Shown: piece after piece, positions 50,987 to 55,688 of the stretch
Position numbering within the stretch: position 1 is the stretch's first letter
Layout of the letters: each line of letters begins with the position of its first letter
Assembly (NCBI RefSeq): GCF_010993705.1
Contig: NZ_WOFO01000003.1
Location: 617,734 to 681,733 of the forward strand
Source of the DNA: Cyclobacterium sp. SYSU L10401
Lineage (GTDB): Bacteria; Bacteroidota; Bacteroidia; Cytophagales; Cyclobacteriaceae
Direction of reading: 5' to 3'
Length of the DNA stretch: 64,000 nt
Translations under genes and position numbers: made by a program
Notes under the pieces: generated by a model
What the model was told of the DNA's origin: nothing
Databases searched by the model: none
Seen by the model: the letters and a program-made list of their open reading frames with translations, nothing else

Positions 50987-51013
50987 AGAGGCTCCGGATG
51001 GAGCCTCTTTTTT
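50987..51013 (+). terminator. Terminator after the HemA-like gene
   Basis: AGAGGCTCC (50987-50995) and GGAGCCTCT (51000-51008) form a perfect 9-bp stem with a GGAT loop and a T run. It separates the HemA-like gene from the his promoter. Confidence 0.9.
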
Positions 51014-51034: not shown

Positions 51035-51065
51035 TTTGTATGTTAGAAATAGCTCACTAAATTTG
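51035..51065 (+). promoter_or_regulatory. Promoter of the his operon
   Basis: TTTG (51035-51038) and TAAATTTG (51058-51065) are separated by 19 bases, a near-ideal match to the Bacteroidota -33/-7 consensus. Transcription would start near 51070-51073, at or just before the first ATG of the leader ORF. Confidence 0.7.
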
Positions 51066-51072
51066 CCCTATC

Positions 51073-51168
51073 ATGATGACCAAAAAGAACAGATACACTA
51101 ACATACTATTTTTACGTTTTTCAAATGCAGCCTGGCATCATGCAAACCATATGGTTACCGGAAAGTAG
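51073..51168 (+). CDS. hisL: Putative his operon leader peptide
   Basis: The frame encodes 31 residues: MMTKKNRYTNILFLRF, then SNAAWHHANHMVTGK and TAG. Three of five successive codons at 51136-51150 (CAT CAT GCA AAC CAT) are histidine, a rare amino acid, and the peptide sits between the his promoter and hisG with a 74-base gap to hisG. The ATG pair (51073 and 51076) lies almost at the predicted transcription start, so the mRNA may be nearly leaderless. These traits fit a leader peptide at which ribosomes pause when charged tRNA-His is scarce. The symbol is used by analogy with the enteric leader; there is no sequence homology claim. Confidence 0.55.
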   Translation: MMTKKNRYTNILFLRFSNAAWHHANHMVTGK

Positions 51169-51192
51169 CTCAAAATGCCGAAGCACTTTTTC
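51130..51192 (+). promoter_or_regulatory. Candidate attenuator overlapping the His codons
   Basis: GC (51130-51131) and GGCAT (51134-51138, covering the Trp codon and the first His codon) can pair with ATGCC (51175-51179) and GC (51183-51184), and CTTTTTC follows at 51186-51192. A self-complementary AACCATATGGTT (51145-51156) lies inside. A ribosome stalled on the His codons would block the 5' arm, so the stem would form only when histidine is plentiful. The stem is weak, and the fold is a hand-made proposal. Confidence 0.35.
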
Positions 51193-51242: not shown

Positions 51243-52103
51243 ATGGAAAATATCATCAGAATTGCTGTTCAAAAAAGCGGAAGGTTAAGTGAGGAATCAC
51301 TGAAGTTAATTAAAGAATGCGGCATTAAATTTTACAACGGAACAGGAAAATTAAAGTCTACTTCTACCAACTTCCCGATAGAATTTTTGTTTTTAAGAGA
51401 TGATGATATTCCGGGATATGTGGCAGATGGAGTGGCAGATTTGGGAATTGTCGGAGAAAATGAGGTAGTCGAAAAAAACAAGTCCATTGATGTGCTTAAA
51501 AAACTGGGTTTTTCCAAATGCCGCCTATCCCTGGCCATACCGAAAGGAGAAAACTATACGGGAATGAACTATTTTGAGGGAAAAAGCATCGCTACTTCCT
51601 ATCCTAAAATATTGGGTGACTACCTGGAGTCTCAGAAAATTAAGGCCGAAATACATGAAATCAGTGGATCTGTAGAAATAGCCCCCAGTATTGGATTGGC
51701 AGAGGGTATCTGTGATATCGTCAGTTCCGGCTCCACCCTGATGATGAATGGCTTGAAAGAAGTAGAGGAGATTTTCCAATCTGAAGCAGTCCTGATTTGC
51801 CACAAGGGCATTTCGAATCTAAAGCAACAAACGGTTGAAAAACTGCTTTTTAGAATGGACGCTGTTCAAAAAGGCAAGAAGAACAAATATGTCCTTTTGA
51901 ATGCTCCAAATGATTCATTGGATCGCATTGTCTCGCTGATACCCGGAATGAGAAGTCCTACCATATTGCCACTGGCAGAGCAAGGCTGGTCTTCGGTACA
52001 TTCAGTCATCAGTGAAGACCAGTTTTGGGAAAACATAGAGGAATTAAGGGCCGCTGGTGCCCAGGGAATTTTGGTAGTGCCCATAGAAAAAATGGTGATT
52101 TAA
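51243..52103 (+). CDS. hisG: ATP phosphoribosyltransferase (long form)
   Basis: HisG joins ATP and PRPP in the first, feedback-controlled step of histidine synthesis. The 286-residue length is that of the long form with a C-terminal ACT-like regulatory domain, so no HisZ is needed. Visible blocks are RIAVQKSGRLSEESLKLIKE at the start, DLGIVGENEV, the PRPP-binding GICDIVSSGSTLMMNGL and the C-terminal domain from about 210 (VLLNAPNDSLDRI). It opens the hisGDCB cluster behind the leader ORF. Confidence 0.96.
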   Translation: MENIIRIAVQKSGRLSEESLKLIKECGIKFYNGTGKLKSTSTNFPIEFLFLRDDDIPGYVADGVADLGIVGENEVVEKNKSIDVLKKLGFSKCRLSLAIPKGENYTGMNYFEGKSIATSYPKILGDYLESQKIKAEIHEISGSVEIAPSIGLAEGICDIVSSGSTLMMNGLKEVEEIFQSEAVLICHKGISNLKQQTVEKLLFRMDAVQKGKKNKYVLLNAPNDSLDRIVSLIPGMRSPTILPLAEQGWSSVHSVISEDQFWENIEELRAAGAQGILVVPIEKMVI

Positions 52104-52205: not shown

Positions 52206-53498
52206 ATGAAAATCCTGGTGAATCCTGACATCCATACCTGGAGCAAAGAACTGGCCAGGCCGGTTCAGAAAATGAAGGATATCGAAAAGATCGTCAAACC
52301 GATCATGAAGAAAGTAAAGCGTCAGGGCGATAAGGCTTTGAGGAAGTTTGCTTTGGAATATGACCATGTTGAAATTGAACAGTTATTGGTAACTCAGGAG
52401 GCCCTGGATAAAGCCGGCCAAAAAATCGATACCCGGCTAAAAGAAGCCATACAGACCGCCAAAATAAACATAGAGAAATTTCATAAACTGCAGGAAGCCC
52501 CTCCCCTAAGCACCGAAATCATGGATGGCGTTACCTGCATGAGAAGAAGTGTGCCCATCCAGAAAGTAGGACTCTATATTCCGGGTGGTACCGCACCCCT
52601 GTTTTCCACCGTATTGATGTTGGGTATTCCAGCTAAATTAGCTGGTTGTCAGGAGATTGTTTTATGCACTCCTCCGGATACCAAAGGAGAAATACATCCC
52701 GCCATTTTATTTACTGCCAAAATGGTAGGTATTGATAAAATTGTTAAAGCCGGAGGTGCACAAGCCATCGCTGCCATGACCTATGGTACGGATTCGGTGC
52801 CAAAGGTCGACAAAATATTCGGTCCTGGTAACCAGTATGTTACTGCGGCCAAACAGTTGGCTACCAAGCAAGGCGTGGCCATAGATATGCCTGCCGGGCC
52901 TTCAGAAGTACTGGTATATGCTGACGAAACGGCCATCCCAGAGTTTGTCGCTGCCGACCTGCTTTCCCAGGCAGAGCATGGGGTAGATAGTCAGGTGGTT
53001 TTGGTATGCCCCACGGAGAAATTTGTAAAAAAGGTAATCAAATCTGTTAACCTTCAATTGGAAAATCTTCCCCGGCAAAAAATTGCTAAAAAAGCCCTGG
53101 AAAACAGTGTAGCTGTGGTCATGTCGTCTACTGAAAAAGCCCTGGACCTGATCAATGCCTATGCCCCCGAACACCTGATCATTTCAGTAAAAGAGGAAGA
53201 TAAAGCCGTATCAGGTATAATTAACGCAGGATCTGTATTTATCGGCAATTATACGCCGGAATCAGCGGGAGACTATGCTTCAGGGACCAACCACACCCTA
53301 CCTACCAATGGGTATGCCAGGAGCTATTCCGGAGTATCCCTGGATAGTTTTGTCAAAAAGATCACCTACCAGAAAATCACTGCTGCGGGGATTAAAGCTT
53401 TGGGCCCAACCATCGAAATCATGGCGGAAAATGAAAACCTGCTGGCCCACAAAAATGCAGTAAGCATCCGATTACAGTACCTCTCCAAAAACAAATAA
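52206..53498 (+). CDS. hisD: Histidinol dehydrogenase
   Basis: HisD carries out the last two NAD-dependent oxidations from histidinol to histidine with a Zn2+ ion. The 430 residues show the family text VGLYIPGGTAPLFSTVLMLG, GGAQAIAAMTYGTDSVPKVD, FGPGNQYVTAAKQL, the zinc-site region LLSQAEHGVDSQ (Gln-Ala-Glu-His) and YAPEHLIISV. It starts 102 bases after hisG and ends 1 base before hisC. Confidence 0.97.
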   Translation: MKILVNPDIHTWSKELARPVQKMKDIEKIVKPIMKKVKRQGDKALRKFALEYDHVEIEQLLVTQEALDKAGQKIDTRLKEAIQTAKINIEKFHKLQEAPPLSTEIMDGVTCMRRSVPIQKVGLYIPGGTAPLFSTVLMLGIPAKLAGCQEIVLCTPPDTKGEIHPAILFTAKMVGIDKIVKAGGAQAIAAMTYGTDSVPKVDKIFGPGNQYVTAAKQLATKQGVAIDMPAGPSEVLVYADETAIPEFVAADLLSQAEHGVDSQVVLVCPTEKFVKKVIKSVNLQLENLPRQKIAKKALENSVAVVMSSTEKALDLINAYAPEHLIISVKEEDKAVSGIINAGSVFIGNYTPESAGDYASGTNHTLPTNGYARSYSGVSLDSFVKKITYQKITAAGIKALGPTIEIMAENENLLAHKNAVSIRLQYLSKNK

Positions 53499-53499
53499 C

Positions 53500-54567
53500 A
53501 TGGCGTTTGACCTTAAAAGCCTGTTAAGGCCACACATTGCGGCACTCAAACCATACTCCTCTGCCAGAGATGAATATACAGGCAAAGAAGGCATTTTTCT
53601 GGATGCCAATGAAAATCCTCTCGGTTCAATTACTCAGGATGCTTTCAATCGCTACCCGGATCCGTATCAAACAGCGCTGAAAGCCAGGTTATCCCAAATT
53701 AAGCAAGTACCTGCGGACAGGATATTTATAGGAAATGGAAGCGATGAAGCCATTGATTTGCTCTTCCGGGCTTTCTGCAGGCCTGGAATTGACAATATAA
53801 TCATTCTCCCTCCTACCTATGGCATGTATGAAGTCAGTGCAGGGATTAATGATACCCGGGTGGTCAAGGTGCCTTTAAGCACTGATTTTCAGATGGAGGA
53901 AGAAAAAGTCCTTCAGGCTGTGGATGAGCATACCAAAATCATATTTATCTGCTCACCCAATAATCCCAGTGGGAATAAACTGAAAAGAGCATCCATCTAC
54001 CAAATCCTTCGGAGTTTCGATGGCCTGCTGGTGGTCGATGAAGCCTACATTGATTTTAGTGATGAACCCAGTTTTTCTCTGGAACTGGATCAGTTCCCAA
54101 ACCTTTTGGTCTTGCAAACCTTATCCAAAGCATGGGGGCTGGCGGCTTTGAGACTGGGAATGGCCTTCGCTTCCCCAGAAATCATAGCCATACTCAATAA
54201 AATCAAGCCTCCCTACAATGTGAGCGGGCTTACCCAGCAAACGGTGCTGCAGGCCATGAACGATATGGATAAGCTGGATGGGATGGTACGGGAAATCCTG
54301 ACCCAAAAAGAATCACTAGCAGAAGAATTAAATAGAATTCCGCTGGTGGAAAAGGTCTATCCCTCCCAGGCCAATTTCTTGTTGGTCAAAGTACCACAAG
54401 CCCGGAAGGTCTATCAGGAACTTATTGGTAGAAAAATAATAGTAAGAGACCGGTCACAAGTACAGCGATGTGATGATTGTTTGAGAATTACTGTAGGGAG
54501 TATGGACGAAAATAAGCGCATGCTGCAGGCCTTAAAAGAGGTTTTGGAATGTCAGGCAGGCTCCTAA
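53500..54567 (+). CDS. hisC: Histidinol-phosphate aminotransferase
   Basis: HisC is a class I/II PLP enzyme converting imidazole-acetol phosphate to histidinol phosphate. The 355-residue protein shows LDANENPLGS near the N-terminus, FIGNGSDEAIDLLFRAFC, CSPNNPSGN, VVDEAYIDFSD and the PLP lysine in LQTLSKAWGLAALRLG. It starts 1 base after hisD and 20 bases before hisB, so the genes are likely co-translated. Confidence 0.96.
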   Translation: MAFDLKSLLRPHIAALKPYSSARDEYTGKEGIFLDANENPLGSITQDAFNRYPDPYQTALKARLSQIKQVPADRIFIGNGSDEAIDLLFRAFCRPGIDNIIILPPTYGMYEVSAGINDTRVVKVPLSTDFQMEEEKVLQAVDEHTKIIFICSPNNPSGNKLKRASIYQILRSFDGLLVVDEAYIDFSDEPSFSLELDQFPNLLVLQTLSKAWGLAALRLGMAFASPEIIAILNKIKPPYNVSGLTQQTVLQAMNDMDKLDGMVREILTQKESLAEELNRIPLVEKVYPSQANFLLVKVPQARKVYQELIGRKIIVRDRSQVQRCDDCLRITVGSMDENKRMLQALKEVLECQAGS

Positions 54568-54587: not shown

Positions 54588-55688
54588 ATGAAAAGAAAGG
54601 TATTGTTTATTGATAGAGACGGCACCATCATCAAGGAGCCACCTACAGATTTTCAGGTGGATAGTCTTGAAAAATTGGAATTTATTCCCAGAGCCATTAC
54701 CAACCTGAGTAAGCTGTCGGAAGATGGGGATTTTGACCTGGTAATGGTCACCAATCAGGATGGTCTGGGCACGCCCTCTTTTCCAGAGGAAACCTTCTGG
54801 CCTGCCCAGTACAAGATGCTTAAAACCCTGGAACAGGAAGGAGTGGTATTCAAAGCCATTCACATCGATAAGACCTTTGAGCATGAAAAGGCACCCACTC
54901 GCAAACCCGGTATCGGCTTGCTTAAGGATTACCTGAATGGGGAGTATGATCTTGAAAACTCCTTCGTAATAGGCGATAGAAAGACAGACGTTCAGTTGGC
55001 GAAAAACCTGGGTACCCGTGCCATTTTTTTCGGAACAGAGGAAATGCAGGGAGCCGATTTATGTATCCATTCCTGGGATGGAATTTACAACTTTTTAAAA
55101 TTGCCTCCCAGAAAATCAAGTTTGAAAAGAAACACATCAGAAACAGAAATTTCCATTCACCTAAACCTCGATGGCTCCGGGAAAAGCGACATTCAGACCG
55201 GCATTCCTTTTTTTGACCACATGCTGGATCAATTGGCCCGGCATGGGAGCACAGATCTGGAAATAAAGGTAAACGGTGATTTACATATAGATGAGCACCA
55301 TACCATCGAGGACACAGGATTGGCCCTGGGTGAAGCATATCTAAAGGCTTTGGGAGATAAAAAAGGTATTTACAGATATGGTTTTCTATTACCCATGGAT
55401 GACTGCCTGGCCCAGGTAGCCGTTGACTTTGGAGGAAGACCCTGGCTGGTCTGGGAAGCCGATTTTAAACGGGAAAAAATTGGTGATATGCCCACAGAAA
55501 TGTTTTTTCACTTTTTCAAATCCTTCAGCGACACGGCAAAATGTAACCTGAACATCAAAGCAAGCGGAGAAAACGAGCACCATAAAATTGAAGCCATTTT
55601 CAAGGGCCTGGCAAGGGCCATCAAAATGGCGGTAAAAAAAGATCCCCATGGGCTTGACCAGTTGCCAAGTACCAAAGGAACACTGTGA
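54588..55688 (+). CDS. hisB: Bifunctional histidinol phosphatase/imidazoleglycerol-phosphate dehydratase
   Basis: The 366-residue protein fuses two enzymes. Residues 1 to about 165 form a HAD phosphatase with the nucleophile motif FIDRDGTII and [10 protein letters not shown]. From about 180 the dehydratase domain follows, with [51 protein letters not shown] and [17 protein letters not shown], which include its metal-binding His/Glu residues. This fusion is common in Bacteroidota and Enterobacteria. A terminator lies just after the stop, so hisHAFI are not part of this unit. Confidence 0.97.

Follow-up and report, generated by a model that had tools for sequence, protein, structure and literature searches.

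What controls the hisGDCB operon of Cyclobacterium sp. SYSU L10401 is the question raised by the DNA just 5' of hisG, where an initial annotation of the 64-kb stretch analyzed here (the window) had drawn a promoter, a short open reading frame (ORF) rich in His codons and a compact attenuator. The promoter, the ORF, the His and Trp codons, the stem arms and the CTTTTTC are each found where they had been placed, and the gene order it had assigned was confirmed, hisG, hisD and hisB by Pfam and hisC by a class I/II aminotransferase match together with its position. The operon consists of the following genes:

51243 to 52103, + strand: hisG, long form with HisG_C (Pfam PF01634, 6.3e-53; PF08029, 1.1e-27)
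52206 to 53498, + strand: hisD (Pfam PF00815, 5.8e-168)
53500 to 54567, + strand: hisC, class I/II aminotransferase (Pfam PF00155, 3.3e-59, and operon position)
54588 to 55688, + strand: hisB, HAD-like N part and IGP dehydratase (Pfam PF00475, 9e-63)

This hisB is the only PF00475 match in the genome. The hisA and hisF genes (PF00977) lie at a separate locus (L285, G000:C3:142961-145692), flanked by apparent hisH and hisI genes, the translations being judged by eye. No second His leader was found among the ATG ORFs in the 400 nt upstream of that locus, so only hisGDCB appears to be leader-controlled. The 5' neighbor of the hisGDCB locus is a glutamyl-tRNA reductase-like gene followed by a terminator at 50987-51008, and between this boundary and hisG the leader region comprises the following elements:

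51035 to 51065, + strand: putative Bacteroidetes-type promoter of the his leader, TTTG-N19-TAAATTTG (sequence and genus-wide recurrence)
51073 to 51168, + strand: predicted his leader ORF, 31 codons and TAG (conservation across genomes)
51109 to 51113, + strand: T5 run within the leader ORF, 5' of the His codons
51136 to 51150, + strand: putative regulatory His codons, CAT at 51136 (H22), 51139 (H23) and 51148 (H26)

The ORF, described at first as 31 codons with His at codons 22, 23 and 26 after a Trp, translates as MMTKKNRYTNILFLRFSNAAWHHANHMVTGK up to its stop, the Trp being codon 21, and an untranslated spacer of 74 nt separates that stop from hisG. All 12 Cyclobacterium genomes have such an ORF, 29-31 codons long and ending 73-89 nt upstream of hisG, and all 12 leaders have an HH pair with another His no more than 5 residues downstream of it. 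Comparison beyond the genus drew on a set of 30 hisG loci, 7 of them from other families of the order, and on 60 further hisG places, part of those remaining. Of 195 upstream stretches, one was left out because it met a contig end (L028), and 162 distinct stretches, mostly from the window's family with a few from the rest of the order, were tested, L109 being omitted for its short flank. Of these 162, 150 have an ORF that starts with ATG and holds 3 or more His within 8 residues; among shuffles that preserve dinucleotides the figure is 25 of 810, and among reverse complements 2 of 162. Of the 12 stretches failing the rule, L015 apparently uses a GTG start that an ATG-only rule misses. Judged by this cross-genome comparison, the predicted leader ORF is far above chance, and the loss of the ORF and its His codons in relatives, which had been named as the outcome that would count against it, is not what the relatives show. 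The locus is thus very probably a His-sensing leader peptide (upstream ORF) of hisGDCB, and the same comparison supports its conservation throughout the genus and broadly across the family.

The leader escaped the family libraries: that of the window matched no Pfam model, the same leader and those of two relatives matched no NCBIfam model, and an Rfam cmscan of the whole window at gathering thresholds returned a tRNA as its sole match and no his leader model. A DNA motif for the His tract was found at 46 places in 41 of 148 genomes (5 for the reversed control pattern); by eye, 31 of the 46 lie within about 160 nt upstream of one of the hisG places located in these genomes. The T5 run is also a recurrent part of the leader. 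Among the near leaders, defined as those with a HisG about 80% identical or more, a T5 lies between the start and the His cluster in 81 of 92, against 379 of 1,840 codon-shuffled controls, at a median of 27 nt upstream of the cluster's first His codon. The double start ATGATG (51072-51083) is complementary to the His codons CATCAT (51134-51142), and the two pair with each other in the whole-leader fold; this start is not universal, occurring in 8 of 12 Cyclobacterium leaders. Additionally, a CATAT motif recurs, by eye, near the N-terminus of many leaders.

The promoter boxes, TTTG at 51035-51038 and TAAATTTG at 51058-51065, are separated by 19 nt. By itself the pattern match is of little weight, since TTTG-N18-20-TANNTTTG has 2 matches on both strands of the 64 kb, the his promoter being one of them, against a chance expectation of 1.71. 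Both boxes and the 19-nt spacing recur, however, in 12 of 12 Cyclobacterium genomes. TAnnTTTG ends 7 nt upstream of the leader ATG in the window, and 84 of 92 near leaders have a distance of 6-10 nt there; in the sample of the class described below a -7-like box lies 2-16 nt upstream of the ATG in 19 of 54 leaders. With the -7-like box so close to the ATG, a nearly leaderless transcript is expected, and the leader ORF is probably near-leaderless. The promoter spacer (51039-51057) is itself kept within the genus, with ATAGCT directly 5' of the -7 box in 11 of 12 genomes; this appears to exceed what is expected of a spacer, and the stretch is perhaps a protein site.

Attenuation in its textbook form is defined by a terminator/antiterminator switch, and the terminator is what this leader lacks. 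Under a rule requiring a hairpin of at most -8 kcal/mol with a T-rich tail behind it, a strong terminator before hisG was found in 0 of 95 near leaders, the window included, and in 10 of 55 more distant ones. Between the leader and hisG of the window no terminator was found, the best hairpin before the T tract reaching -2.2 kcal/mol. The class as a whole behaves otherwise. In a sample of 158 genomes, 69 of them with a HisG match, 60 upstream stretches were taken, all from outside the window's order, and under a laxer ORF rule (ATG, GTG or TTG) 47 of 54 leader-bearing genomes have a strong terminator, hairpin and U-tract, before hisG. His attenuation is thus not confined to Enterobacteria, most leaders of the class sample being of the terminator type; the unusual feature here is the missing terminator. 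The genome of the window provides a control at four loci. The ilvD leader (L279, G000:C22), MFILVSLVVLIVIII to its stop, is followed by a terminator of -14.4 kcal/mol, and the trpE leader (L281, G000:C15), MKKTIQIWWWLTYFF to its stop, by one of -19.5 kcal/mol; a second ilvD homologue (L280) has no classical leader and a best hairpin of -7.0, and the start of the homoserine dehydrogenase gene (L278) is too close to the edge of its locus for judgment. Since the ilv and trp leaders and most his leaders of the class sample have terminators, the classical device is missing from the his leader of this lineage, not from the genome or the class. The position of the His codons differs as well: 84 of the 95 near leaders have their last His 2 residues from the stop, and over all 95 the median number of residues downstream of that His is 2, compared with 6 in the 57 terminator leaders used for this comparison.

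In place of a terminator, many relatives have a predicted hairpin centered on the stop codon of the leader. Over 122 distinct leaders without a strong terminator, a 27-nt window centered on the stop has a mean minimum free energy (MFE) of -6.14, compared with -0.99 and -1.25 for windows 12 nt to either side; the mean z is -1.62, with 53% of leaders below -1.5, against a z of -0.09 in 10 terminator leaders. The arms vary by genus while pairing is kept (TTCCTC/GAGGAA, ATTGCT/AGCAAT, ATTGCTGT/ACAGTAAT, ATCTCTC/GAGAGAT and TGTGC/GCACA). When arms were swapped, on either side, among 72 less related representatives, the native pairing was stronger in 63 of 72 (p 2.6e-10); it was stronger in 42 of 58 in swaps between species (p 1.8e-6) and in 33 of 48 with the common TCCTC arm left out (p 6e-5). 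The predicted stop-codon hairpin is thus backed in many relatives by compensatory change. Within Cyclobacterium it is much less evident, with z below -1.5 in only 2 of 12 leaders (L011 and L012) and z of 0 or more in L001, L003, L005, L007, L009 and L010. A stop-codon hairpin was also seen in a leader from another order of the class (L235, in G249, family f16), which ends in HHSHTHHHSS, has TCCTCC/GGAGGA arms and has no terminator; given this case, the type may be wider than the lineage or may have arisen twice.

Other structures in the leaders were considered and set aside. The MFE profile has further, lower peaks 5' of the His codons and 24-42 nt past the stop. Tested against shuffles, the hairpin just 5' of the His codons is weak, with a mean z of -0.61 over 88 representatives, and its pairing with two downstream stretches (p 0.033 and 0.036 out of 12 tests) is not significant once corrected; a stem farther downstream, in the spacer before hisG, has a mean z of -0.42. 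Shortly 3' of the stop-codon hairpin, ACATATCGCCC (or ATATTGCCC) recurs by eye in relatives such as L038, L072 and L080, and also in L020, L022 and L024; the CATAT motif of the leader N-termini resembles it.

In the window itself, the following elements lie around the leader stop codon:

51162 to 51189, + strand: weak stem spanning the stop codon of the leader, with its 5' arm at 51162-51171 and its 3' arm at 51181-51189
51187 to 51191, + strand: T5 tract at the base of and just past the stop-codon stem (invariant in four species)

This stem is a possible counterpart of the hairpin of the relatives. It is formed in both the MFE and the centroid structure of the whole leader, a fold that is overall no better than shuffles (z -0.18), and taken alone it has a z of -0.87, with 93 of 500 shuffles as good; the short stop-centered hairpin is absent from the window (z 0.4). 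In a four-species group (the window, G011, G004 and G008, in that order) the stem energies are -6.0, -7.7, -6.3 and -4.4 and the z values -0.87, -2.74, -2.13 and -1.40, significant in two of the relatives. Across the four, 94.4% of cells are paired, without covariation. Invariant columns make up 1.00 of the 5' arm, 0.30 of the loop and 0.92 of the 3' arm with the T tract. The region 51122-51192 in fact holds three islands, GGCATCATG with the His codons, AAAGTAGCT and nearly AAGCACTTTTTC (1.00, 1.00 and 0.92 invariant), separated by stretches at 0.26 and 0.30, and the latter two islands pair across the stop codon. The stem arms are not the sole conserved part, since the 56 nt upstream of hisG are 0.68 invariant in the same species. 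The window stem starts 26 nt past the first His codon and 14 nt past the last, farther than in typical relatives, where by eye the hairpin starts about 12-18 nt past the terminal cluster's first His codon. The terminal cluster differs too, HHANHMVTGK before the stop instead of HHFHHSS, and the window is a derived, weaker case of its leader type. It is important to consider that the Belliella-type group was picked by pattern, so that conservation of the pattern inside that group is by construction.

These distances suggest how such a leader might work. The footprint of a ribosome usually reaches about 13 nt downstream from the first base of its A-site codon. When charged tRNA-His is scarce, the ribosome would halt on the His codons with its front edge just reaching the base of the stop-codon hairpin, which could then form; a ribosome reading through to the stop would unwind it, and the hairpin would therefore report His shortage. 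By the same footprint, a ribosome at any His codon of the window would leave the stem at 51162-51189 free or nearly so, and one at the stop would cover its 5' arm. As a terminator such a hairpin would shut the operon in starvation, for which reason we take it as most likely an ON structure replacing the classical antiterminator, or a pause signal. Once the ribosome leaves at the stop, the untranslated spacer would be open to termination without a U-tract, and Rho would be the obvious candidate. Our confidence differs between the parts. That the stop-codon hairpin is an active element in the relatives is evenly balanced; the terminator-less leader as a whole, with sensor, hairpin and shut-off, comes slightly short of an even chance; an active role for the stem of the window is held more tentatively still; and the Rho step is rather unlikely. 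With similar caution as for the window stem, we suggest that the lineage of Cyclobacterium, Algoriphagus, Belliella and Echinicola may have a his attenuator that lost its terminator and was rebuilt on a stop-codon hairpin, a sensor of ribosome position needing neither an intrinsic terminator nor an antiterminator pair, in a background where the ilv and trp leaders of the window genome are still classical.

The OFF step of this mechanism would have to lie elsewhere than in the hairpin and was not found, the tests for Rho loading and for hiding of the hisG start being weak or negative. The ratio C/(C+G) before hisG is 0.60 in near leaders against 0.54 in 178 control 5' regions (p 2e-6), with just 9% of near leaders above the 95th percentile of the controls; the window, at 0.71, falls on their 94th percentile. 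The longest G-free run near the stop has a median of 22 in near and terminator leaders alike and measures 10 in the window. The Rho-loading signature is accordingly not convincing, amounting to a mild excess of C over G with a G-free run that is the same in both leader types. A programmed frameshift through the stop towards hisG was discarded, long alternative-frame ORFs being seen by eye in few genomes only.

Among the other explanations, the two that survive best are both unlikely, and to a like degree. In the first, attenuation is classical with a weak terminator, formed by the stem at 51162-51189 with CUUUUUC, and ribosome stalling on the His codons would let an unrecognized antiterminator fold. 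The stem does lead into a T5, its arms and the T tract vary little or not at all among four species, and classical attenuators are both the rule in the class sample and present in the same genome. However, the terminator rule failed at every site, as noted above for the best hairpin before the tract, the sign is wrong by the footprint given above, with the stem left free by a stalled ribosome, and in arm swaps none of the downstream partners tried for the arms of the stop-codon hairpin covaried (p 0.94-1.0). The second is translational attenuation of the mycobacterial polycysteine type, in which base pairing with the leader would occupy the hisG start until a stalled ribosome opened it. The his leader has the layout reported for the mycobacterial cys leaders (PMC1262725, PMC13236596), in that its ORF is probably near-leaderless, its regulatory codons lie near the stop and a terminator is lacking; moreover, a consensus fold built from 29 sequences of the Algoriphagus type pairs ATGGAA of hisG with TTCCAT in the His tract. 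This pairing was nevertheless rejected for absence of covariation, native combinations of His tract and hisG start being stronger than swapped ones in 31 of 72 (p 0.69), and the hisG start region has no structure (mean z +0.20).

Far less probable is that the leader ORF is a decaying remnant in the species group of the window, with regulation lost. The weak stop-codon hairpin and the altered His cluster would fit such decay, but promoter, ORF, frame, His codons and stem arms are all kept in four species while the stretches between them have diverged. The least probable reading, hardly tenable now, is the compact switch first proposed, in which the stalled ribosome itself covers the 5' arm of a terminator, drawn as follows:

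51130 to 51184, + strand: stem GC+GGCAT / ATGCC+GC, not supported

Although the window has both arms (GGCAT at 51134-51138 with ATGCC at 51175-51179, and GC at 51130-51131 with GC at 51183-51184) as well as CTTTTTC (51186-51192), this stem was rejected, since 104 of 200 shuffles fold as well or better (z 0.19), three of the four aligned species break two of the seven pairs (75% of cells paired), and the whole-leader fold does not contain it. Thus, of the attenuator as first drawn, the His leader peptide is supported and the stem with the first His codon in its 5' arm is not.

The preferred reading, in which the His-sensing leader lacks a terminator and relies on a hairpin at its stop codon, matters because many related genomes keep an amino-acid-sensing leader peptide without the terminator, and the two classical leaders of the same genome serve as an internal control. 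This lets operon control by a leader peptide without a terminator be tested directly, in a phylum little studied for such regulation, and may aid the finding of short regulatory ORFs missed by family libraries. Comparative work on attenuators from 2004 reportedly mentions Bacteroidetes/Chlorobi. Within the open-licence literature, in the portions of text available and with most subscription papers outside its scope, no description was found of a his leader that lacks a terminator and has a hairpin at its stop codon.

In tnaC, the position of the ribosome near the stop codon decides the outcome, through nascent-chain arrest. The leaders described here resemble the tnaC type in that an intrinsic terminator would not be needed and ribosome position near the stop would be decisive, and they differ in that codon-dependent stalling is expected and the Rho-loading signature is not convincing. 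The excerpted text of one study names Rho-dependent attenuation of the tnaC type as a model and describes cys leader peptides of Mycobacterium with codons near the stop and no terminators, for which Rho was suggested (PMC1262725). These were later reported to be translational attenuators (Canestrari et al. 2020, as cited in excerpts of PMC9094748, PMC9031893 and PMC13236596). The likeness, as far as those excerpts go, lies in an ORF that is leaderless or nearly so (probably, in the his case), in regulatory codons close to its stop and in the lack of a terminator; the phylum and the amino acid are different, and the mycobacterial leaders are reported to act on translation of the downstream gene, which has no support in the his leader here. 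In Escherichia coli, ribosomes repress terminators near a stop codon, according to the accessible part of PMC4824070. For his genes in the superphylum, the available section of a further paper mentions attenuation for E. coli and Salmonella (PMC8305728). Likeness to the enterobacterial hisL consists in a short His-codon ORF directly 5' of hisG that is expected to sense charged tRNA-His. The enterobacterial leader has a run of seven His codons, a strong terminator and an antiterminator; the one here, in contrast, has no run of seven His, no strong terminator and no demonstrated antiterminator.

Nearer to Cyclobacterium, part of a Flavobacterium transcriptome study reports a structured 5' element before hisG in Flavobacteriaceae and clues to leader-peptide attenuation at amino acid operons (PMC9723704), and part of a separate paper describes short ORFs in Bacteroides that resemble attenuator leaders (PMC7366714). 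The structured element 5' of hisG, as given in that portion of the Flavobacteriaceae work, is a point of likeness to the present case, and the terminator-type his leaders of the class share with it a His-rich leader ORF in the same place before hisG. The difference lies in what follows the ORF and in its end: the terminator-type leaders carry a strong hairpin with a U-tract and continue for a median of 6 residues past the last His, whereas the near relatives of the window carry no such terminator and place the last His a median of 2 residues from the end.
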